Shown: piece by piece, positions 5,939 to 35,232 of the stretch | How positions within the stretch are numbered: position 1 is the first letter of the stretch | Layout: the number at the start of each line of letters is the position of its first letter | Origin: Acidimicrobium ferrooxidans | Lineage (GTDB): Bacteria; Actinomycetota; Geothermincolia; Fen-727; Anoxymicrobiaceae | Direction of reading: 5' to 3' | DNA: 64,000 bases | Assembly (NCBI GenBank): GCA_020723485.1 | Contig: DYIU01000002.1 | Span: 281,543-345,542, forward strand | Program-made: the position numbers and the translations under genes | Notes under the pieces: model-generated | The model's database searches: none | Seen by the model: only the letters and a program-made list of their open reading frames with translations | What the model was told of the DNA's origin: nothing

Positions 5939-7639
5939 TCAGCGGGGAAGGGTGCGCCTTATCTCCTCCAGCGAGGTCACGCCGGCAGCCACCTTCTGGA
6001 CCCCGTTCTGCCAGAGGGTCTGCATTCCCTGCCGCACCGCGACATCGGTGATGTCGTCGAGCTGCACACCGGGCACCATCAAGTCACGTATCTCTTCGGT
6101 CACGGGCATGACCTCGAAGATACCTATGCGGTCAAGGTAGCCCGTGCCTCTGCATTCCTCGCACCCGGCTGCTCTGAAGAGCGAGACGTCCGGGCCGGCG
6201 TCAAGCCCCATCTCGCCGAGCTCGGCGTCCGACGGGACGTACTGCTCCCGGCAGACAACGCACAGCCTCCGCGCAAGCCTCTGGGCGACGACCAGCTTGA
6301 CCACCTCGCGCACGTAGTAGTATTCGATGCCTATCTCCATGAGCCGGAGCAGCACCTCGGGAGCGTCGGTGGTGTGCAGGGTGCTCAGCAGCAGGTGCCC
6401 GGTGAGCGCGGCGCGCACCGCGACGTCCGCCGTCTCACTGTCCCTTATCTCGCCGAGCAGGATCACGTTCGGGTCCTGGCGGAGCACGGAACGTAACAGC
6501 GGGGCGAACCCCAGGCCTATCTCGTGGTTCACCTGTATCTGGTTGAGGTTCTCCATCCGGTATTCGACCGGGTCCTCGATGGTCACCACCTTGCGTGTGA
6601 CGCTGTCTATCTTGTTCAGCATCGAGTACATGGTGGTCGTCTTGCCGCTCCCGGTAGGGCCTGTGGAAAGGACGAAACCGTACGGCTCGCTCAAAGCCTT
6701 CATTATCTTGGCCATATCGTCGGCGTCGAAACCGAGCGATTCAAGGTCGGCGCCCGCCCGGCTCTGGTCGAGAACACTCAATGTGACGGACTCACCGTAG
6801 ATTGTCGGTGAGGTCGCCACCCTGAAATCGACATCCCTTCGGCCGAACTTCACGAAGATGACTCCGTCCTGCGGCTGTCGCCTCTCGGCGATATCGAGCT
6901 CCGAGAGTATCTTCACCCTGGAGATCACCGCTTTGTGCACCTCGCGGTTCATCTCCTGCACACGTCCCAGGAGGCCGTCTATCCTGTACCTCACCAGGGA
7001 GTGCTCCATCTTGGGCTCAATGTGGATGTCGCTCGCCCTTCGCCTGATAGCGTCGGCGAGCAGTTTCTCTACCAGCCTTACCACGTGCTCTTCGTCGAGA
7101 TCGAGCTCCTCGCACTCCTCACTGATACCCGTCCCCTCGGAGACCGAAAGACATTCCAGCTTCTCAGCACCTGCCTCGATATCGATCTCTTCTGCGGTGA
7201 ACTGGCCGGGGAAGAAGATGGCCAGGGCGGCATCTACGTCCGGCCGGTCACACAGGAAGGCCCGCAGGGAACACCCCGAGGCGAAAGAGATTTCCTCCTG
7301 CGCCTCCATTGACAGCGGGCCGGAGACTGCGAGGGTGATAGTGCGGTCTGAAAGCGAGACCGGTATCAGCCGGTTCTCTATCGAGACGGCGGCCGGCACT
7401 CGCTTTACAGCCTGTGGATCGATGGAAGAGACGTCGAGATCCTCGTAAGGCAGGCCGAGGTGCGCGCTCATGGCGCTCATGACTGCCCCGCGCTCCGCGT
7501 AGCCCTCGGCGACGACCGTCTCCACCAGCTCTGCATCATCGCTGCCGGATACCGCGCGGGCACGCTCCAGCTGCTCCGGCGTTACCAGCCCGCCGGCGAT
7601 TAGGGCTCGGGCGAATCCTTCGTCATATTGCGCGTTCAC
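5939..7639 (-). CDS. Type II secretion / type IV pilus assembly ATPase (GspE/PilB family)
   Basis: A 566-residue secretion ATPase. The N-terminal 1-140 region is an MshEN/GspE-N domain (LVTPEQLERA, LGLPYEDLD). The ATPase domain has Walker A STGPTGSGKTTT at 325-336, an Asp box, and Walker B NVILLGEIRD followed by the His box LLSTLHTTDAP. A tetracysteine zinc site (CVVC ... CEEC, about 455-492) is typical of PilB and GspE. It powers pseudopilus or pilus assembly, or DNA uptake. No other pilus gene is in the window, so PilB and GspE cannot be separated. The start is a GTG; no ATG is in frame nearby. It lies 58 bases after the SCP2 gene on the same strand, with no clear terminator between them. 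Confidence 0.9.
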   Translation of the reverse strand: MNAQYDEGFARALIAGGLVTPEQLERARAVSGSDDAELVETVVAEGYAERGAVMSAMSAHLGLPYEDLDVSSIDPQAVKRVPAAVSIENRLIPVSLSDRTITLAVSGPLSMEAQEEISFASGCSLRAFLCDRPDVDAALAIFFPGQFTAEEIDIEAGAEKLECLSVSEGTGISEECEELDLDEEHVVRLVEKLLADAIRRRASDIHIEPKMEHSLVRYRIDGLLGRVQEMNREVHKAVISRVKILSELDIAERRQPQDGVIFVKFGRRDVDFRVATSPTIYGESVTLSVLDQSRAGADLESLGFDADDMAKIMKALSEPYGFVLSTGPTGSGKTTTMYSMLNKIDSVTRKVVTIEDPVEYRMENLNQIQVNHEIGLGFAPLLRSVLRQDPNVILLGEIRDSETADVAVRAALTGHLLLSTLHTTDAPEVLLRLMEIGIEYYYVREVVKLVVAQRLARRLCVVCREQYVPSDAELGEMGLDAGPDVSLFRAAGCEECRGTGYLDRIGIFEVMPVTEEIRDLMVPGVQLDDITDVAVRQGMQTLWQNGVQKVAAGVTSLEEIRRTLPR

Positions 7640-7697
7640 AACCTGGCCGCTCCGCTGCGCTCGTTGCGCAGGTCGTACTTTCCGGATTGAGGATATC

Positions 7698-8138
7698 CTA
7701 CTGCTTATGTATCACCTTGTCGCCGTAGCCCATCTCCTCGAGCGCGACCGGGAAAGAAGAGAATGCCGGCCTGACCACCGGGAGCAGCCTCATCATCGCG
7801 GTGACCTTTCCGCCCTGCTTGACCTTGCCCTTTGTGACCGCCGCGATGGGGTTCTCGTGACCGTGCCAGAAGCTGTGCGAGAAGTCCGCGGCCTGCTTTG
7901 ACCAGACGTCCTCCTGCAGGTCGCACGGTCCGAGATAGTAATTCCCGAAGTAACCGGGCTTCGTCGGCGGGTTCTTCAGGTCGATGGTTATCTCACCGTC
8001 GGGGTCCGTGTAGATGAACTTGATGATTATGCCGGCCTTGCTCATCTTCGGGCCTATTTTGGGGTCGGTGAGTATCTTGTCCATGAAGTACCCGTAGATC
8101 TCGTAGAGCTGGTCGATGTCCCTGTAGTACTCGCCCAT
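7698..8138 (-). CDS. SCP2 sterol-carrier-like domain protein
   Basis: A 146-residue single-domain protein with the SCP2-like pattern: amphipathic N-terminal helices, a central strand with ITIDLKNPPTKPG, a SHSFWHGHENPIAAVTKGKVKQGGK segment read in two parts, and a C-terminal hydrophobic helix. SCP2 domains bind lipids or fatty acyl-CoA in a hydrophobic tunnel. It is the last gene of the nine-gene run headed by the PadR gene, 16 bases after an acyl-CoA dehydrogenase. That position suggests it carries or buffers a hydrophobic acyl-CoA intermediate. AAGGAAGG precedes the ATG. Confidence 0.78.
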   Translation of the reverse strand: MGEYYRDIDQLYEIYGYFMDKILTDPKIGPKMSKAGIIIKFIYTDPDGEITIDLKNPPTKPGYFGNYYLGPCDLQEDVWSKQAADFSHSFWHGHENPIAAVTKGKVKQGGKVTAMMRLLPVVRPAFSSFPVALEEMGYGDKVIHKQ

Positions 8139-8154
8139 CGCCGACCTTCCTTTC

Positions 8155-9321
8155 CTACTTGCCGGGGCGCTGGTCGAAGCGCCGCCCGAAGAGCACGCTC
8201 GCCAGCGTCGTCCGGAGCATCTGGGTAGTGCCGCCGGCCACGCACCAGGCCCTCGCGTCCCTGACCATCCTCTCGACCGGGAAAGCCTTCGAATATCCGT
8301 AGCCGCCGAACACCAGGGCGGCGCTGTTGGTGACGTCGATGACCATCTCGTTCGCGTAGCACTTGGCGAGGGAGGCCTCGTAGATCGAGGGCAGGCCGCC
8401 CCCGGCGCCGCTCGCGGCCCTGTAGACCAGCAGGCGCGCCGCGTCGAGCTTCATCGCCATGTCGGCAATGCGGAACTGGATGTCCTGGAACTCGCAGATG
8501 GGCCTGCCGAAGGCGTGCCTCTGCAATGCGTACGCCCGCGCCTCCTCCATGGCCCCCCCGGCCACGCCGAGGCACATCGCCGCGTTCCCGCACCTCTCGA
8601 TGTCGAAGGTCAGCATCAGGTTTTTGAAATCACCGGCCCGGAGCACCACGTTCTCCTCCGGGATGCGGACGTCCTCGAATATCAGGTCGCATGACGGCAT
8701 CCCCCGGAGGCCCATCAGGTCCTCCTGGGGCCCGAAGGTAAAGCCCGGCATTCCCTTTTCCACGATGACCGCGCCTATGCCCCTGTAGCCCATCACGTCA
8801 CCGAACCTGGTGTAGACCAGGTAGTGGCTCGCCTCGCCTCCGCCGGTGATGAAAATCTTGCGGCCGTTCAGGACGTACCCATCGCCGTCCTCCACGACGT
8901 TGGTCGCGAGCGAGGTGAGGTCGCAGCCGGCCTCCGGCTCGGTCATGCAGACGCTCACGGAGAGCTCCCCTTTGCAGACCCCGGTCACGATCTTCTTCTT
9001 CTGCTCGTCGGTGCCGAACATGTCGACCACCCGGACCGGGCCGACGTTCGACTCGAAGACCGGCGCCGCCATCATCGGGCTGAACTTGGCGAGCTCCTCT
9101 ATCGCCAGCACGGCGGTGAGAGCCGGCTGTCCCTGCCCTCCATATTCCGGTGACAGCGTCATTCCCAGGAGGTCCATCCCGGCGTACATCGGCATGAGCT
9201 TCCACGGGAACTCTCCGGTCCTGTCGACCTCCGAGGCGAGGTCCTTGAAGTTCTCCTTCTCCCCCATCTCCCGGATTGTCTGGACGAGCAGCTGCTGCTC
9301 CTCGGTCAGCTTGAAGTCCAT
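8155..9321 (-). CDS. Acyl-CoA dehydrogenase (IVD-type catalytic Glu)
   Basis: A 388-residue acyl-CoA dehydrogenase: CMTEPEAGCDL is the flavin loop, LNGRKIFITGGGEA the middle strand, and FGGYGYSKAFPVERMVRDAR the C-terminal signature. The Glu that serves as catalytic base in medium-chain enzymes (within YEGT) is replaced: the window reads AGGT, with G363 at that place. A Glu is instead present in FDIER (E242), the position used by isovaleryl-CoA and long-chain dehydrogenases. The enzyme is thus probably active. It sits between MmgE/PrpD and SCP2 genes in the glycyl radical operon and likely makes the alpha,beta double bond of the pathway acyl-CoA. Confidence 0.9.
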   Translation of the reverse strand: MDFKLTEEQQLLVQTIREMGEKENFKDLASEVDRTGEFPWKLMPMYAGMDLLGMTLSPEYGGQGQPALTAVLAIEELAKFSPMMAAPVFESNVGPVRVVDMFGTDEQKKKIVTGVCKGELSVSVCMTEPEAGCDLTSLATNVVEDGDGYVLNGRKIFITGGGEASHYLVYTRFGDVMGYRGIGAVIVEKGMPGFTFGPQEDLMGLRGMPSCDLIFEDVRIPEENVVLRAGDFKNLMLTFDIERCGNAAMCLGVAGGAMEEARAYALQRHAFGRPICEFQDIQFRIADMAMKLDAARLLVYRAASGAGGGLPSIYEASLAKCYANEMVIDVTNSAALVFGGYGYSKAFPVERMVRDARAWCVAGGTTQMLRTTLASVLFGRRFDQRPGK

Positions 9322-26661: not shown

Positions 26662-28089
26662 TCAGTAGCACTGGCGGAACCCGCCCACCCCGCCTGCCGA
26701 CCTCCATCTCCAGTAGTGGTACAGCGACGCGAGCGAGCGGGCGCCGGGCTCCGGGGAGACGTAGATGGGCACGTCAGGGCCGGCTACTTCGGCCATGTGC
26801 CCCACGAAATCGCTGTGGCCCACTGCGACGACTACAAGTGGTTTCCCGGGCGAGGCGTCCTTTATGGCGGCGATGTCCCCGAACCATCCCCTGCCGTCGA
26901 ATCCCATCTTCATCAACTCGCTGAACACGGCGTAAGGGATGATGGTGACCGCCAGCACCATGTCTATTTCGTCGTCCTCCATCAGCGCCGAGAGCGCCGC
27001 GGAGAACTGGCCGGACGGCCCGACGTCCAGGGGATTCTTCACATTCATCCATGTGGGCGAGTCGGCGCGCATGCGCTCCGCGGTCTTCTCCGAGAGCGGC
27101 GGCACGGCCAGGCCGTAGCGCACCGCCGTGTCCGTCGCCATCACCCCGAGGCTCCCGCTCGACGTGACGATGCCCAGGCGGTTGCCACGGGGCGCCGGCA
27201 GCGTTGAGAAGGCTCGGGCCATCTCGACCAGGCCCTCCAGGTTTGCGGCGCGTAGCGTGCCGGTCTGTGTGAAAACCGCCTCGTACAGCTCGTCCTCCCC
27301 GGAGAGGCTCGCCGTGTGCGACTCGGTCGCTGCCCTCCCGGCGGGCGTCCTCCCGCTCTTCAGGACCATCACCGGCTTCTTCATGGTCACGTCCGCGAGC
27401 ACGCGCTTCAGGCGCACCCCGTCGGCCGCGCCCTCCAGGTACATCATTATCACGCCGGTGTCGGGGTCGTCCGCGAGGTGCTCAAGCACGTCGCACTCGT
27501 TGACGTCCATGCGGTCCCCAAGCGTCACTGCCTTGCTGACGAACATCCTGAACTGCGGCAGCATGTCGAGCAGGCAGTTGCCGAAGACCCCGCTCTGCGC
27601 GATTATCGCCGTCCGTCCGGGCTCGAGCGACTCGTCGATTATCTCCACCGTGCTGAACCTGTTGGCCGTGTTGACCAGGCCGACGCAGTTCGGCCCGATC
27701 ACCCTGATGCCGTGCCCGGCGGCGACGGACGCGGCCTCGTCCTGCAGCTTGCGGCCCTGCTCGCCTATCTCGGCGAACCCGGCGCTCTCCACTATGGCGT
27801 GGCGTATCCCGCGGCGGCCTGTCTCCTCGAGCATCTTGGGGACCACCGCCGCAGGCACCAGCACCACCGCCAGGTCCACGGGATCGGGGACGTCAAGGAC
27901 GCTCGGGTACACCTTCATGCCGTGCAGCTCATCGACCGAGGGGTTGACCAGGTATGTCCTGTCCGCCCAGCCGTGCGCCTTGAGCAGGATGGGGATGCCG
28001 TAGCCGAAGCCCATGTTCCGGCGAGCGCCGACTATGGCCACGCCCTCGGGCTCGAAGAACGTCCGCAGTCCGGTGTCGCTCATCTCCAC
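26662..28089 (-). CDS. ADP-forming acyl-CoA synthetase, alpha-subunit-like (paralogue 1)
   Basis: A 475-residue protein with a CoA-binding Rossmann domain (EGVAIVGARRN), a succinyl-CoA-ligase-like flavodoxin domain (AIIAQSGVFGNCLLDML) and the phosphohistidine site in ESHTASLSG (H258). That His is the residue phosphorylated in ADP-forming acetyl-CoA synthetases. The ATP-grasp beta subunit is absent from this gene and from the window. It would convert an acyl-CoA to an acid plus ATP, or the reverse, with an unlinked beta subunit. The start is a GTG at 28089 or ATG at 28083; neither has a strong site. It follows the aminomutase-like gene by 4 bases, so translational coupling is likely. Confidence 0.85.
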   Translation of the reverse strand: MEMSDTGLRTFFEPEGVAIVGARRNMGFGYGIPILLKAHGWADRTYLVNPSVDELHGMKVYPSVLDVPDPVDLAVVLVPAAVVPKMLEETGRRGIRHAIVESAGFAEIGEQGRKLQDEAASVAAGHGIRVIGPNCVGLVNTANRFSTVEIIDESLEPGRTAIIAQSGVFGNCLLDMLPQFRMFVSKAVTLGDRMDVNECDVLEHLADDPDTGVIMMYLEGAADGVRLKRVLADVTMKKPVMVLKSGRTPAGRAATESHTASLSGEDELYEAVFTQTGTLRAANLEGLVEMARAFSTLPAPRGNRLGIVTSSGSLGVMATDTAVRYGLAVPPLSEKTAERMRADSPTWMNVKNPLDVGPSGQFSAALSALMEDDEIDMVLAVTIIPYAVFSELMKMGFDGRGWFGDIAAIKDASPGKPLVVVAVGHSDFVGHMAEVAGPDVPIYVSPEPGARSLASLYHYWRWRSAGGVGGFRQCY

Positions 28090-28093
28090 CAGC

Positions 28094-29494
28094 CTACTTC
28101 TTCGGTATCAGCGACAGTATGTACTCCCAGACCTCGAGGGTCTTCGACAAGGCCGCGTCGTCGTGCTGCATGCACGTGTACATCCGCGTGCCGGCGAGGG
28201 AGTTCAGACCGTTGAGCGAGGCCACCATCTGGTAGTCCTCCGCGGTCTTGCGCCTGCTGATGACCTCGAACGCCTTCGGGCCGGTGATGTCGACCCAGAA
28301 GAAACCGGTGGTGACGTACTGGATTATCGGGCCGTAGTTGTAGAGGAAGAACGGCAGGTCCGGCCGGGTGTCGAACAGCGCGTTCAGCTCTGCGGTGAGC
28401 CTGTCGGCGAAGGCGGTCGACTTTACCACGGCGTCGTTCTCCTCCATAAGCCTTATAGCATGGTAGCAGGCCCCGCACGATATCGGGTTGGCCGCGAGCG
28501 TGCCCCCCAGGTAGGGCCGCTGGCCCATGCCCGCTCCGACTATCTCCATGACCTCCCTGCGGCCCGCTACGGCGCCCGCGCTCGGGAACCCGTGCGCGAC
28601 TATCTTGCCGAGCACCGTCAGGTCGGCGGTTATGTCGAAGTACTTCTGCGCGCCGCCCATGTCGAGCCTGAAACCCGTCACCACCTCGTCGAAGATGAGG
28701 AGGGCGCCGTACTCATCACACAGCTCTCGGCACCGCCCGTTCCAGTCAGGGTGCACCGGGTGCACGCCGGACTCGCCGCCCACAGGCTCTATGACCATGC
28801 ACGCGATGTCGTCGGCGTTGTCAGCGAACGCCTTCTCAAGAGCGTCGAAGTCGTTGGGCTTCACCTCGACCAGCAGGTCATACGTCTGGGGTGGTATGCC
28901 GGGCGAGTTGAGGCCGGCCGTCCCCGGCACGTGCAGGTTGTAGACGTAGGTATCGTACCAGCCGTGGTAGCTCCCCTCTACCTTGATGACCTTCTGCCTG
29001 CCGGTTACCGCGCGGGCGATCCGGAGCGCCGCCATGTCGGCCTCCGTCCCGGACTGCAGGAACCGGACCACGTCGACCGAGGGCATGTGCTCGACTATCT
29101 TCTTCGAGGCCAGCAGCTCGTACTCGGAGGTGAGACCCGTGGACGGCCCCTTCTCCTGGATTATCTTGACCACCTCGTCGTCCAGCGGGTCATAGTGGTG
29201 ACCGAGGATTATCGGCGCGCCGCAGAGCAGGAAGTCGACGTACTCGTTGCCGTCCACGTCCCACATCTTGTAACCCTTGGCCCTGTCCATGGTCAGGGGG
29301 AACGGGTGGCTGGTCGCCAGATTATGCTCGACGCCCCCCGGGATATAGCTCTTGAGCTCCTCGAATATCTCGAGGGACCTCTTGCGGGTCTTGTAGAACT
29401 CGTCCTTGACCTTGTCCAGGACGTCGTCGGGAATAGGGTGCAGGTCGTCTTCCATGCAACGCGCCCTGCGCTCCATTATCTCGTCATAGTCCAT
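28094..29494 (-). CDS. Class III aminotransferase, glutamate-1-semialdehyde-aminomutase-like
   Basis: A 466-residue PLP enzyme. D269 (LIFDEVVTGFR) and K297 (LTVLGKIVAHG) are the PLP-contact Asp and Schiff-base Lys. The GSAM-type signatures PGGVEHN, RFLQSGTEADMAALR and GSYHGWYD are present. It is longer than HemL (about 430) at both ends and the HemL gate region differs, so a side-chain transaminase or aminomutase on another substrate is more likely than haem synthesis. AAGGTGATC lies 5 bases before the ATG. It is cotranscribed with the ACD alpha-subunit gene and sits 87 bases downstream of the MtrA-like gene on the same strand. Confidence 0.87.
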   Translation of the reverse strand: MDYDEIMERRARCMEDDLHPIPDDVLDKVKDEFYKTRKRSLEIFEELKSYIPGGVEHNLATSHPFPLTMDRAKGYKMWDVDGNEYVDFLLCGAPIILGHHYDPLDDEVVKIIQEKGPSTGLTSEYELLASKKIVEHMPSVDVVRFLQSGTEADMAALRIARAVTGRQKVIKVEGSYHGWYDTYVYNLHVPGTAGLNSPGIPPQTYDLLVEVKPNDFDALEKAFADNADDIACMVIEPVGGESGVHPVHPDWNGRCRELCDEYGALLIFDEVVTGFRLDMGGAQKYFDITADLTVLGKIVAHGFPSAGAVAGRREVMEIVGAGMGQRPYLGGTLAANPISCGACYHAIRLMEENDAVVKSTAFADRLTAELNALFDTRPDLPFFLYNYGPIIQYVTTGFFWVDITGPKAFEVISRRKTAEDYQMVASLNGLNSLAGTRMYTCMQHDDAALSKTLEVWEYILSLIPKK

Positions 29495-29581: not shown

Positions 29582-30283
29582 CTAACCGCCGGGGTGTCCC
29601 TTCTGAGAGCCCTTCTGCCGTATCTTCTCCATCAGCGCCTCGGCATTGCGCTTGGCCTCGCGCTGCTTCTCGTCCTCTGGCTCCCAGTACGGTTGGAGTA
29701 TCTTCCAGGTTATGGTGCCGCTCAGTGGCGGCTCCGGGTAGGCGCCGATGTCGTACAGTTCCTGTCCCAGAAACTCGACGGGATCTTCCTGGTAGCACGA
29801 CCAGACCGCCCTGCGAACGAGGTCGGGGTCCTGCTGGAACTGGAGGTCGACGAGCGTCAACTGGCTCCTGAATCTCTCTATCATCTCAAGGGATATGTTG
29901 TAGAGGAACGGATGCGGCGACTCCGTGCCGATTATCCTCTGCTTTGCGTCCACCCCGTTCTCGAAGAGTGCCTTCACCGCTTCTCCCGTGAGATGGCCCT
30001 CGGACTCAGGCCCGCCCATCACGAGGTAGCGGATGTTCGGGTTGGAGACCACGTTGCAGATGACCTTCTCGAGCCCTATATTCTCCGTCTGGAGCGTCCC
30101 CGAGAGGGCCGCGCCGCTCTCGGCCCCGACGCGAACCAGCTTCTCTATCTCGGGGGGCACCTTGTCCTGCTCCCACCTGAGGATGATGAGGACCGCCACC
30201 GGTGAGCGGTCGTTTCCTCGTATGTAGCAGCCCTCCTCGGGCGGGTAATCCGGGTGTGTGTCGACCTTGAGCACGGCTATCAT
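29582..30283 (-). CDS. MtrA-like corrinoid-binding protein (stand-alone)
   Basis: A 233-residue protein matching the cytoplasmic domain of tetrahydromethanopterin S-methyltransferase subunit A. The family core runs through TLQTENIGLEKVICNVVSNP, NIRYLVMGGPESEGHLTG, EAVKALFENGVDAKQRIIG and PHPFLYNI. H97 in SEGHLTG aligns with the His that coordinates cobalt in methanogen MtrA. The C-terminal membrane helix of methanogen MtrA is lacking; the end is charged and hydrophilic. The ATG overlaps the TGA of the upstream small CxC protein (ATGA), so the gene is translationally coupled to the ars operon. No other Mtr subunit is present, so it cannot be part of a methanogenic complex. A methyl carrier role is likely, target unknown. 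Confidence 0.85.
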   Translation of the reverse strand: MIAVLKVDTHPDYPPEEGCYIRGNDRSPVAVLIILRWEQDKVPPEIEKLVRVGAESGAALSGTLQTENIGLEKVICNVVSNPNIRYLVMGGPESEGHLTGEAVKALFENGVDAKQRIIGTESPHPFLYNISLEMIERFRSQLTLVDLQFQQDPDLVRRAVWSCYQEDPVEFLGQELYDIGAYPEPPLSGTITWKILQPYWEPEDEKQREAKRNAEALMEKIRQKGSQKGHPGG

Positions 30284-30633
30284 CCCGCCTCTTCAAAGAA
30301 CAGCTCGGCCGCGGGGACCTCCCCGATGTACTTTAGCTCACCATCAACTGCCACGGAAGGCGTCGCGCTGTTCAGCGAGAAGGCGAGGTTCTCTGCGAGC
30401 TCGGTCTCCCCCGCGCCCTCCAGGTATCCCCTGAGCGCCCTCATTCCCTCCTCGTAGTCCGCGTCCTCGCCGAGCATCCACGCGCGCACCTCGAACCCCG
30501 CGTCCTTTTCGAGCGCGGCCTTCAACGCCAACGCCCTGGTTATCTTCTCCTGCCTCGCCGGGGTGGGCCCCCCTGCGCACGTGCAGGCGATCGGTCCTAT
30601 GAAGATCTCGACCAACCGTCTTGCTCCTTGCAT
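30280..30633 (-). CDS. Small thioredoxin-fold-like CxC protein in ars operon
   Basis: A 117-residue protein with VEIFIGPIACTCAGGP near the N-terminus, giving Cys17-x-Cys19. The strand-CxC-helix opening and a second half ending SATPSVAVDGELKYIG (a cis-Pro-like loop) fit a thioredoxin/glutaredoxin-type fold. The start may be ATG 30633, or TTG 30615, which has AAGGAG 8 bases upstream and gives a protein starting directly at the first strand. It follows acr3 by 6 bases and overlaps the MtrA-like gene. Possible roles: arsenic or thiol handling, or reduction of a partner. I cannot assign a reaction. Confidence 0.7.
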   Translation of the reverse strand: MQGARRLVEIFIGPIACTCAGGPTPARQEKITRALALKAALEKDAGFEVRAWMLGEDADYEEGMRALRGYLEGAGETELAENLAFSLNSATPSVAVDGELKYIGEVPAAELFFEEAG

Positions 30634-30639
30634 GTTGTG

Positions 30640-31836
30640 CTAAGCCTCTTGAGCAGCCTGTTTGACGACTTGCTCTCTTTTTCTCGGGAAGTGATCGCGG
30701 GTTCGCAATCCTATCCTTACGAGCGCAAGCATGATGGGCACCTCTATCAGCGGGCCTATCACCGTCGCCAGAGTGACCTTCGAGCTTATTCCGAACACCG
30801 CTGCCGCAACCGCTATGGCGAGCTCGAAGTTATTACTCGAGCCTGTCAGCCCGACCACAACAGAGTTCTCGTAACTGATGTTGAGCACCCAGGATGCGAA
30901 GTAGCCTCCCGCGAACATCGTGAAGAAGAATATAGTGACCGGGATCGCAACAAGCAATACGACTATCGGCTCGTCGATTATGACCTCGCCTTTGAGTGTG
31001 AACATGACGATCAGCGTGAAAAGGAGGCCCACAATCGCCATCACCCGCATCCAGGGCGAGAGCTTGTGCTCAATCCACTCCTCGCCGCGGGTATTGACCA
31101 ACCTGCGCCGCACAAAGAAACCTATTACCAGCGGCAACCCGAGAAAGACGAGTACCGTTACCAGGATATTCGGGATGTTGACCCTCGCGATGTCGAAGTC
31201 GATCTTCCGTCCGCTCGCGGCGATCTCGTTGACGTATCCCTTCGTCAGGAAGTAGGCGAAGAAGGAGAAGATGAACATCTGCACCACCGAGTTTATGGCC
31301 ATGAGGACCATGGCCAGTGCGTTGTTCCCATCCGCCAGGTACGACCACATCAGGACCATGGCGATGCAGGGCGCGACGCCGAGCAGGACGACTCCTATCG
31401 CGTACTCAGGATGGCTGCGGAGGAATATCCACGACAACAGGTACATGTAAAAGGGCGAGATAAACCAGCAGAAGAAGATTACGATACCCAGTTCCTTCCA
31501 GGCCTTTACGGCCTTGACCGCCTCCTCCAGCCTGATGCGGAGCATGATGGGAAACATCATCATGAAGAGCCCGACGGCTATAGGGATCGAGACAAAGCCG
31601 AGCTTCACATTGTCAAGCTGGGTGCCGAGTTGGGGAAACAGCTTGCCCAGGCCGAGGCCGATTCCCATACACACGAATATCCACACGAAGAGGTAGCGGT
31701 CGAAGAAGTCAAGGTGCTTGGGCTTGCCGAGCTCCCTGTCCACGGATTCGGCGTGCTCCATCCTCTCCTCGACGTCCCCGGTCAACAGGTCACCGGCGCC
31801 GCTCTTCCTCTTCTCTCCCCGGCCTCCGCCTGTCAT
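30640..31836 (-). CDS. acr3: Arsenite efflux permease, ACR3 family
   Basis: A 398-residue membrane protein with about ten hydrophobic helices after a charged 50-residue N-terminus. ACR3 signatures are present: GVAPCIAMVLMWSYLADGN with the conserved Cys in the fourth helix, and VVGLTGSSNNFELAIAVAAA. It exports As(III) (or Sb(III)) using the proton gradient. The ATG at 31836 shares a base with the arsR stop (TGATG) and has GAGGAG 8 bases upstream, so arsR and acr3 are translationally coupled. The gene is followed by the small CxC protein and the MtrA-like protein. Confidence 0.93.
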   Translation of the reverse strand: MTGGGRGEKRKSGAGDLLTGDVEERMEHAESVDRELGKPKHLDFFDRYLFVWIFVCMGIGLGLGKLFPQLGTQLDNVKLGFVSIPIAVGLFMMMFPIMLRIRLEEAVKAVKAWKELGIVIFFCWFISPFYMYLLSWIFLRSHPEYAIGVVLLGVAPCIAMVLMWSYLADGNNALAMVLMAINSVVQMFIFSFFAYFLTKGYVNEIAASGRKIDFDIARVNIPNILVTVLVFLGLPLVIGFFVRRRLVNTRGEEWIEHKLSPWMRVMAIVGLLFTLIVMFTLKGEVIIDEPIVVLLVAIPVTIFFFTMFAGGYFASWVLNISYENSVVVGLTGSSNNFELAIAVAAAVFGISSKVTLATVIGPLIEVPIMLALVRIGLRTRDHFPRKREQVVKQAAQEA

Positions 31837-32198
31837 CAACAGTTCTCCTCAGCTCTTTCGCATGCCGCACGGGCTACGCCTTCGCGCACCTTCCTGTAGT
31901 CGAGGAACCCGCCGAACATCTCATTTACCCTCTCGAGGGCGTCCCTTTCCACCGAGTAATAAGTCCAGGTGCCTTCCTTTCTGGACCTCAGCAGCCCGGC
32001 TTCCTTCAACACGTTGAGGTGGTGGCTCGCCAGCTGTTGTGAGATGTCGAGCTCGTGCTCGACGTGGCACACGCAGCTCTCCCCGGCCGATAGATAGCAC
32101 ATGATCCTCAGCCTGTTCGGGTCACAAAGTGCCTTGAGCGCCTCCGCGAGCTCCATCACCCTGGGATCTCTCATGCAGCTCGGCCCACGTTCTTTCAA
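31836..32198 (-). CDS. arsR: ArsR-family arsenic-responsive repressor
   Basis: A 120-residue winged-helix repressor. The As(III) site is C42-V-C44 in ESCVCHVEHEL, at the start of the recognition helix region as in classical ArsR (CVCDL). The helix-turn-helix follows (DISQQLASHHLNVLKEAGL), then the wing RKEGTWTYYSV. Two more Cys near the C-terminus may add to metal binding. A TTG start at 32198 has GGGAGAG 5 bases upstream; an internal ATG at 32174 is the alternative. It controls the operon through the dyad at 32223-32242. Confidence 0.92.
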   Translation of the reverse strand: MKERGPSCMRDPRVMELAEALKALCDPNRLRIMCYLSAGESCVCHVEHELDISQQLASHHLNVLKEAGLLRSRKEGTWTYYSVERDALERVNEMFGGFLDYRKVREGVARAACERAEENC

Positions 32199-32222: not shown

Positions 32223-32242
32223 ATACAAACCACCATTTGTAT
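32223..32242. promoter_or_regulatory. ArsR operator
   Basis: ATACAAA-CCACCA-TTTGTAT, a perfect 7+6+7 dyad directly downstream of the -10 box of the arsR promoter, so bound repressor would cover the transcription start. Spacing and symmetry fit ArsR/SmtB dimers. Confidence 0.8.
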
Positions 32243-32270
32243 TATAGCACCTCGAGCGGAAGTCCGGCAA
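32241..32270 (-). promoter_or_regulatory. Promoter of the ars operon
   Basis: On the minus strand TTGCCG and TATAAT are separated by 18 bases; TATAAT occupies 32246-32241. The operator overlaps its downstream side. Confidence 0.65.
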
Positions 32271-33982: not shown

Positions 33983-35026
33983 CTATTCGTAGAGCTTCCG
34001 GTGCTCCGCGGGCATCCGCGAGAAGGCCTTCTCGGCGTCGCGCGCGCTAAGGACATCAACCTCGCCGTCCTCGCGCTGTACGACGCAACCGGAGCGCTTG
34101 AGCAGGCGGTGGTTCTGCCTGGTCTCTTCTCTATCGCCCCAGCAGATTATCTGGCAGTTGCCGCAGGTCAGGTGCAGGCTGGTGTCCGCGAGCGCTATGT
34201 TCACGTACCCATCCGTCCCTCCCAACCGTTCAGGCCACTTGGAGTAGTTTTCCACAGCCCTGAAGAAGACCTTGCCCATCTCCTCCAGGCCGTCGGGAAT
34301 CTCGTACCTGCCCGGCGACCAGGTGGACCACTGGCCGCTCGGGTGCAGGCCGGTGAACCCACCGCATACCAGCTGGCACGGCAGGTACGACGGCCGCGCG
34401 CTGAAGCTGAAGGTCGTCCCTCCCAGTGTCACCGAGGTCTCCCGCTTCGCGTCGAACATCCCGGAGGGACAGCAGGCGACGCACCTCATGCACCGGTCAC
34501 AGAACGAGTCATCCTCCCCCTCGGGCTCCGTAGGTTCCAGCTCCGCGGACGTCACGGTCGTACCGAGGATGATGGCGGAACCGTAATCCTTGATGCCGAT
34601 ATTCCCCGACCACCCGAATGAGCCGACGCCCGAGCGCGCCGCCACGTACCGGTGCGATAGGTCCGGCGGCATCGAGAGCTCCCATCCCTCCACCTCTGTG
34701 CGGTAGATGTTGTTTGAGATTACCCTCTTCGAGACATAGCCCTCCTCCTCCAGCATGATAGCGAGCGCCTTGGCGAGCCTCGACGAGCGGACATTGGTGT
34801 CGAAGTTGTCCTGCTCGTGGGCGGTATGGCTCTGCTTTGAGAGATACAGCCGTATCTTGTCCCGGTCCAGCGGGAGGGCGAAGCTCACCGCCGACCTCGC
34901 TTCGGGGATGATGTAGCGCAGGTCAGCGCTCGGCGGGCCGCCGGCCATGGTCTCGAGGGTGGCGAATCCCACCTTCACCGCTCCTCTTTCCCTGAGGAAC
35001 TCCTCTATACGGGCGTTCAATGACAA
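33983..35026 (-). CDS. QueG/RdhA-like corrinoid and iron-sulfur protein
   Basis: A 347-residue cytoplasmic protein of the epoxyqueuosine reductase / reductive dehalogenase superfamily. One cluster motif, CDRCMRCVACCP, fits CX2CX2CX3CP exactly. The second, CGNCQIICWG, has Trp in place of the usual Pro. An N-terminal domain precedes them (VGFATLETMAGGPPSADLRY, ARSAVSFALPLD). No Tat signal and no HEAT-repeat tail are present, so it is neither a classical RdhA nor full-length QueG. It probably uses a cobalamin to reduce a substrate. The TTG start at 35026 has GGAGGTG 6 bases upstream. It faces the IlvD gene with 4 bases between the stop codons. Confidence 0.75.
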   Translation of the reverse strand: MSLNARIEEFLRERGAVKVGFATLETMAGGPPSADLRYIIPEARSAVSFALPLDRDKIRLYLSKQSHTAHEQDNFDTNVRSSRLAKALAIMLEEEGYVSKRVISNNIYRTEVEGWELSMPPDLSHRYVAARSGVGSFGWSGNIGIKDYGSAIILGTTVTSAELEPTEPEGEDDSFCDRCMRCVACCPSGMFDAKRETSVTLGGTTFSFSARPSYLPCQLVCGGFTGLHPSGQWSTWSPGRYEIPDGLEEMGKVFFRAVENYSKWPERLGGTDGYVNIALADTSLHLTCGNCQIICWGDREETRQNHRLLKRSGCVVQREDGEVDVLSARDAEKAFSRMPAEHRKLYE

Positions 35027-35232
35027 CCTGCGCACCTCCAATGCTCGCCGCCGCACGCTCGCTGGCTAAAGTCTATTAGCTCAGACCCTCGCCAGTCCAT
35101 ACTGCCCAATGGGGAGTCGACATCGACCGCGCCCTGATAAAGCTCCGGGACGGCGAGTGAGGGAAGCCACGCCGGTCCTCCCGGCTGGACTTCCCCCACC
35201 GTTGCCGCATCTATAAAGCTGACAAGCGCGAG

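Follow-up and report, generated by a model that had tools for sequence, protein, structure and literature searches.

A predicted corrinoid protein of the MtrA family within an arsenic resistance operon

A 64,000-nucleotide stretch of DNA from Acidimicrobium ferrooxidans (assembly GCA_020723485.1, contig DYIU01000002.1, positions 281,543 to 345,542; hereafter the window) contains a tightly coupled arsenic resistance (ars) operon on its minus strand. The operon encodes, in order, the regulator ArsR, the arsenite permease Acr3, a small protein with a CxC motif, and a homologue of MtrA, the cobalamin subunit of the Na+-pumping methyl-tetrahydromethanopterin (methyl-H4MPT):coenzyme M methyltransferase. 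The ars operon is of a known kind; with a predicted corrinoid module inside it, it has a real chance of representing a new biochemical system. The MtrA homologue is tentatively proposed to be a soluble corrinoid (B12) methyl carrier dedicated to arsenic in anaerobes, most likely for the methylation of As(III). This reading draws on sequence, structural model and analogy, and is held with a little less than even confidence. The broader proposal, a previously undescribed, phylum-crossing corrinoid family performing dedicated, arsenic-induced C-As chemistry in anaerobes (as a B12-dependent arsenic methyltransferase or demethylase), could as readily hold as fail.

The MtrA homologue matches PF04208 with 137.9 bits (cut-off 25) and NF002126 with 188 bits (cut-off 161). 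It does not reach the cut-off of the canonical MtrA equivalog TIGR01111 (130 against 249 bits). In a phmmer search it aligns to the cobalamin-bound MtrA of Methanothermus fervidus (5LAA). An AlphaFold model built from 36 relatives has a predicted local distance difference test (pLDDT) score of 85, and its only significant matches in the PDB are MtrA structures (5LAA/5L8X), with a template modelling (TM) score of 0.91-0.93 and a root-mean-square deviation of 2.2 Å to 5LAA. PF04208 is the only Pfam family found in the protein at E values up to 1, with no corrinoid domain of the HgcA CFeSP type. The S-adenosylmethionine (SAM) methyltransferase domain of ArsM and the vicinal oxygen chelate domain of ArsI are likewise absent from the protein.

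The side chains that touch cobalamin in MtrA are His84, Asn55, Thr53, Asn64, and Tyr18 (PMC4915002). These map to H97, N68, T66, N77, and Y20 of the window protein, with His97 aligning exactly to the cobalt ligand His84 of the M. fervidus protein. The first four are kept in 57 of 57 members of the core family defined below, and Y20 in 53 of 55. The claim of a sequence-only reading of this DNA, that the cobalt-binding histidine is retained, thus extends to every core relative, and corrinoid binding is strongly predicted from the alignment and the model. The same reading reported no membrane helix, and neither such a helix nor a hydrophobic segment is present in the sequence or the model, whose C-terminal helix at residues 205-227 is charged. 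It had also reported no Mtr partners. This holds for the operon neighbourhood, where no Mtr complex genes were found; MtrH (PF02007) was not searched genome-wide.

The protein departs from canonical MtrA at several positions. The canonical meander, GAIPF-Y/F-xEN, is SPHPFLYN in the window protein and mostly A-P-H-P-F/Y-L-F/Y-N across the family, and its G, A, I, and E are replaced in nearly all relatives. Replacement of the energy-coupling meander of a sodium pump is expected because this protein has no pump. Cys76 is present in 55 of 57 family members and is Ala or Val in 20 of 20 canonical MtrA sequences, while Cys163 is present in 56 of 57 against 6 of 20. A tree constructed with a quick method places the core family in one clade on a long stem, apart from canonical MtrA, with a Shimodaira-Hasegawa-like approximate likelihood ratio (SH-aLRT) support of 100. 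A degraded canonical MtrA was rejected as an explanation, since the family forms a separate clade and has invariant positions of its own.

The gene is not confined to this genome. A class-level search found it in 7 of 31 genomes, phylum-level draws screened with NF002126 showed it to be present in Actinomycetota, Spirochaetota, Desulfobacterota, and the methanogen phylum, and a GTDB scan yielded 39 loci. The set used here comprises 63 distinct loci, of which 57 belong to the core family and six to a more distant methanogen type. Left out were locus L057, cut by a contig end, and loci L058-L061, where only the N-terminus matches and the copy is truncated, frameshifted, or a fragment. In L059 and L061 the truncated or frameshifted copy lies directly behind a molybdoenzyme gene, which is DMSO (dimethyl sulfoxide)/selenate-reductase-like in L061.

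The proximity to arsenic genes recurs as well. Since acr3 is present in 21 of the 31 genomes of the class in any case, its co-occurrence there is uninformative, and adjacency is the informative signal. An acr3 gene lies within 6 kb of the MtrA homologue gene at 20 of 63 loci, against 0.3 expected by chance from about 1.2 acr3 genes per 3.4 Mb. Under random placement the binomial probability is approximately 2e-31; neither figure takes account of relatedness. Counting acr3, an ArsP-type permease, arsM, or arsC, 29 of the 63 loci have an arsenic gene nearby, in bacteria and archaea and in four phyla. At several loci the genes are tightly joined: acr3 overlaps mtrA in L028, at most 2 bp lie between these two genes in L032 and in L050, the ArsP gene overlaps mtrA in L186, and arsM overlaps it downstream in L025. 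The genome of L045 carries a second copy close to acr3 (L160). In the tree, arsenic-linked members occupy basal branches and several inner branches of the core clade. The suggestion to check the pairing across lineages, with the proviso that it might occur only here, is thereby settled in favor of recurrence in four or more phyla of bacteria and archaea.

Among 102 other proteins encoded at the arsenic-linked loci, the top NCBIfam families are ArsG (organoarsenical efflux) and ArsF (organoarsenical reduction), with six each, and the Pfam matches include thiol-redox and radical SAM proteins. Radical SAM/SPASM genes are present in several of these neighborhoods (L036 at 7811-9163, and others), with TIGR04317 in 4 of 102. 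An ArsF-ArsG fusion is located at L024 8362-9543 and at L027 8225-9406, inside operons of arsR, acr3, and an ArsD-like gene that also hold the MtrA homologue. A gene of the URO-D/MtaA superfamily (L028 3977-5083, identical to L008 118-1224) follows the MtrA homologue gene on the same strand after 259 bp; MtaA is the enzyme of methanogens for which arsenic methylation is reported. Plasmid-borne ars elements were considered and rejected: the only relatives given by a tblastn search of PLSDB were of the DUF4346 type, on plasmids of Planococcus and Paraburkholderia, at 39-43% identity over approximately 60% of the query. No ars gene is annotated in the Planococcus plasmid neighborhood that was inspected, and the record from Paraburkholderia carries no annotation.

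Fusions of the MtrA domain bear on its chemistry. In two Desulfobacterota loci, L176 and L177, the homologue has a C-terminal PF04060 [4Fe-4S] domain (47 and 46 bits, cut-off 23). Both fusion genes lie beside arsR and an ArsP-type permease gene, and L176 (homologue at approximately 7135-7990) also has acr3. The PF04060 domain serves cobalt reduction in corrinoid/iron-sulfur proteins and corrinoid activators, and these fusions are the clearest hint of redox activation of a corrinoid. In L039 the gene is directly preceded by that of a two-cluster ferredoxin closest to HgcAB-type ferredoxins, below the HgcB cut-off. Together the fusion and the HgcB-resembling ferredoxin are clues that point to redox-cycled corrinoid chemistry. 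An archaeal homologue of approximately 290 amino acids (L185, minus strand) has a C-terminal winged helix (HTH_20, 34 bits against 27) and is possibly a corrinoid- or arsenic-responsive regulator.

Other extensions were noted. In L171, L173, and L174, all from Desulfobacterota, there is a C-terminal extension in which a Cys-containing motif is conserved; the motif is CQKTVGNCTIGSGCF in L173, where the extension has no Pfam match. In L062, L063, L162, and L175 the MtrA domain is preceded by a Cys-rich segment and followed by one of the DUF4346 type. PF14251 was confirmed in L175, where an ArsR-type gene directly follows. As Pfam names PF14251 pterin-binding, its fusion to the MtrA domain in more distant relatives fits methyl transfer with folates.

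The window genes are listed in Table 1. The ArsR gene product scores 93 bits against NF033788 (cut-off 55) and the Acr3 product 347 bits against the equivalog TIGR00832 (cut-off 282.8), in agreement with the assignments made from the sequence alone. The tight gene order had also been described there, with coupling of the last three genes. Junctions are a 4-bp overlap between arsR and acr3, a 6-bp gap between acr3 and the CxC gene, and a 4-bp overlap between the CxC gene and mtrA. Because arsR and acr3 also overlap, all four genes are coupled. The arsR gene and the arsenite efflux gene are co-directional and coupled, as in an ars operon.

Table 1. Features of the ars operon in the window (positions from the first nucleotide of the window).
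Feature	Position	Strand	Remarks
arsR, ArsR/SmtB-type metalloregulator with CVC motif	31836-32198	-	TTG start; ATG at 32174; NF033788
acr3, arsenite efflux permease	30640-31839	-	TTG start; ATG at 31836; TIGR00832
CxC protein, 117 aa, ArsD-like thioredoxin fold, C17-x-C19, candidate As(III) chaperone	30280-30633	-	AlphaFold and Foldseek
MtrA homologue, 233 aa, soluble, PF04208, predicted corrinoid protein	29582-30283	-	Profile match, model, alignment
Promoter-like TTGCCG-18-TATAAT, extended TG, upstream of arsR	32241-32270	-	10 of 12 consensus matches
Palindrome ATACAAA-6-TTTGTAT, 7-bp arms 100% complementary, just 3' of the -10 box	32223-32242		Candidate ArsR operator

Promoter-like sites of this quality number two in the region against 1.1 expected, so the site upstream of arsR is suggestive only of a genuine promoter. 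The palindrome near its -10 box is a candidate operator for ArsR. The MtrA homologue is the sole PF04208 match in the 3.36-Mb genome, and the acr3 gene of the window is the only one there. Since the window is part of a 1.03-Mb contig in an assembly that is 95% complete and 0.1% contaminated, a misassembled methanogen fragment is unlikely, and misassembly was rejected as the source of the gene. On the same strand, starting 87 bp past mtrA, genes of the class-III aminotransferase and acetate-CoA ligase alpha types (26662-29494) probably form a separate unit, as no recurrence was seen in related loci. A gene at 33983-35056, near the operon and behind an opposite-strand ilvD, encodes an iron-sulfur (Fe-S) protein that by eye is similar to the B12 enzymes of the epoxyqueuosine reductase/reductive dehalogenase group; Pfam gives weak ferredoxin matches only.

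The CxC protein has an AlphaFold model with a pLDDT of 85. Its top Foldseek matches are the ArsD structures 3ktb, 3mwh, and 3kgk, with probabilities of 0.98-1.00, but TM scores of only 0.44-0.60. No curated ArsD family recognizes the sequence, Pfam gives only Thioredoxin_3, weakly and under the cut-off, and NCBIfam gives no match. Only two homologues were found here, and the CxC is kept in three homologous sequences. The protein may pass As(III) on, either to Acr3 or to the MtrA homologue. ArsA was considered as a partner for this ArsD-like protein and rejected: a full-length ArsA ATPase was not found in the host genome, which has only short P-loop matches (approximately 60 of 305 positions or fewer).

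An arsenic methyl carrier is suggested because the cobalamin contacts are kept, an Fe-S fusion exists, and the gene keeps the company of arsenic genes. The earlier proposal, that a corrinoid moves methyl groups to or from arsenic, is partly supported on these grounds. Beyond the operon structure, the conservation, the predicted fold, the kept cobalamin contacts, and the gene company, we infer corrinoid binding, an arsenic substrate, induction by arsenic, and the direction of transfer, which leans modestly toward methylation. In the proposed mechanism, the corrinoid would be kept as Co(I) by low-potential electrons, supplied by the fused [4Fe-4S] domain or neighboring ferredoxin in some members and, in the others, by general ferredoxins. 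Its methylation would fall to a methyl-tetrahydrofolate (methyl-THF) or methyl-H4MPT:corrinoid methyltransferase encoded on the chromosome. As(III), brought by thiols or by the ArsD-like protein, would accept the methyl group by attacking methyl-Co(III), giving methylarsenate and Co(I), and the latter would be remethylated from methyl-THF or methyl-H4MPT. The product would be reduced by thioredoxin-type partners and exported by ArsP/ArsG-type permeases where present, with Acr3 serving unmodified As(III). The whole gene set would be induced by arsenic through ArsR. Methyl donors exist in the host, which has 20 B12-binding domains and two methyl-THF:corrinoid methyltransferase homologues besides dihydropteroate synthase. 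Precedents are the arsenic methylation by MtaA/methylcobalamin, a side reaction in methanogens (review PMC13262295), and HgcA, whose action on mercury is the analogy for methylation of As(III); the genes of that corrinoid system, hgcAB, are reported beside acr3, arsC, and arsM (PMC7438021).

Several observations weigh against this role. In 14 of 57 family members Pro or Ala replaces Glu54, the residue of the His-cobalt relay that in MtrA bridges His84 to the meander. A clade of 15 members, mostly Desulfobacterota, is largely without arsenic neighbors (arsM is present in two), and there the arsenic linkage was largely lost or never present. The operon encodes no methyltransferase partner. A separate SAM-dependent ArsM is encoded elsewhere in the host genome, and arsM adjoins the MtrA homologue gene in four loci, so that methylation by a corrinoid could be redundant. 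The host ArsM gene (L072 1108-2214, contig C3) lies far from the window beside an ArsR-like gene of its own, and its product has a C-terminal extension that by eye resembles ArsM-AhpD fusions.

The closest rival is the reverse reaction, anaerobic demethylation. The Co(I) form would demethylate methylarsenate or dimethylarsenate, releasing As(III) or trivalent methylarsenic (MAs(III)) for export by Acr3 or ArsP, and would pass the methyl group to folate or pterin. This would be the oxygen-free functional counterpart of ArsI. It is graded nearly as plausible as methylation; as a complete account it is rather unlikely. ArsI is a dioxygenase, the mechanism of dimethylarsenate demethylation is described as unclear, and corrinoid proteins have been suggested for this reaction in methylotrophic methanogens (PMC10579292). 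The hosts of the family are mostly anaerobic lineages, going by record titles, the organoarsenical transporters ArsP and ArsG recur beside the gene, and reductive-activation modules suit Co(I) chemistry. Inorganic arsenic is indicated as the substrate instead by the ArsD-like chaperone, ArsC, and Acr3. By our reasoning only pentavalent substrates are sensible, as removal of CH3+ from MAs(III) would leave As(I).

Less likely still is a non-catalytic role, in which the MtrA fold would bind As(III) through Cys76 and Cys163, or sense the arsenic or B12 state, as a buffer, chaperone, or co-regulator. The near-invariance of these cysteines, mostly missing from canonical MtrA, would suit it, as would the winged-helix fusion of L185 and an operon without a catalytic partner. 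Such a role would not require that every cobalamin contact be kept, the nucleotide-tail pocket included, and the fusion to a corrinoid-type Fe-S domain also argues against it. Quite improbable is a role with a metalloid or metal other than arsenic (Sb, Se, Te, or Hg) or in general one-carbon metabolism, the placement in ars operons reflecting broad metalloid stress. Part of the family does lie away from ars genes, the oxidoreductase gene adjoining the truncated copy in L061 has a relative in L059, and Acr3 transporters can also handle antimonite, but the coupling to Acr3, ArsR, ArsC, ArsM, and ArsP recurs across phyla. A chance neighborhood or annotation artefact, conceivable while a single genome was known, is hardly credible, being already contradicted by the binomial figure and by the spread over several deep tree branches.

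Anaerobic soils and sediments both methylate and demethylate arsenic, with effects on rice toxicity and arsenic mobility, and the known SAM-dependent ArsM and oxygen-dependent ArsI leave anaerobic demethylation unexplained. A conserved, arsenic-linked, predicted corrinoid protein of anaerobic lineages offers a concrete gene and a possible metagenome marker. If the proposal is true, the protein joins HgcA as a corrinoid protein for a toxic element and provides an oxygen-free alternative to ArsM and ArsI. The soluble MtrA homologues of bacteria and non-methanogens, noted earlier with the key histidine mostly conserved and no function given (PMC4915002), would also gain a function. The sequence-only reading did not recognize the combination as a described system, and no paper on MtrA homologues in ars operons was found in the open-access literature, subscription journals not being covered.

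The CxC protein shares with ArsD its predicted fold, an N-terminal cysteine pair, and its operon context; it differs in lacking a sequence-family match, in its C-x-C spacing, and in a genome where no full-length ArsA was found. MtrA and its cytoplasmic homologues have the same fold, cobalt-ligand histidine, and cobalamin-contact residues as the window family, whereas the latter is a separate clade that lacks the membrane anchor and has no genes of the Mtr complex in its vicinity, with an ars operon context, an altered meander, conserved Cys76 and Cys163, and its own N- and C-terminal motifs. The mercury methylation system HgcA/HgcB applies a corrinoid protein and an Fe-S reductant to a toxic element in anaerobes. 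In the window protein Pfam finds the MtrA fold only, without the corrinoid domain of HgcA, and the ferredoxin of L039, below the HgcB cut-off, is not general in the family. ArsM, the SAM-dependent arsenite methyltransferase found beside the gene in the four loci above, would form the same product with an unrelated fold, its methyl source being SAM and not a corrinoid. The C-As lyase ArsI would share a niche with the MtrA homologue if the latter demethylates, but it is an oxygen-dependent dioxygenase of unrelated fold.

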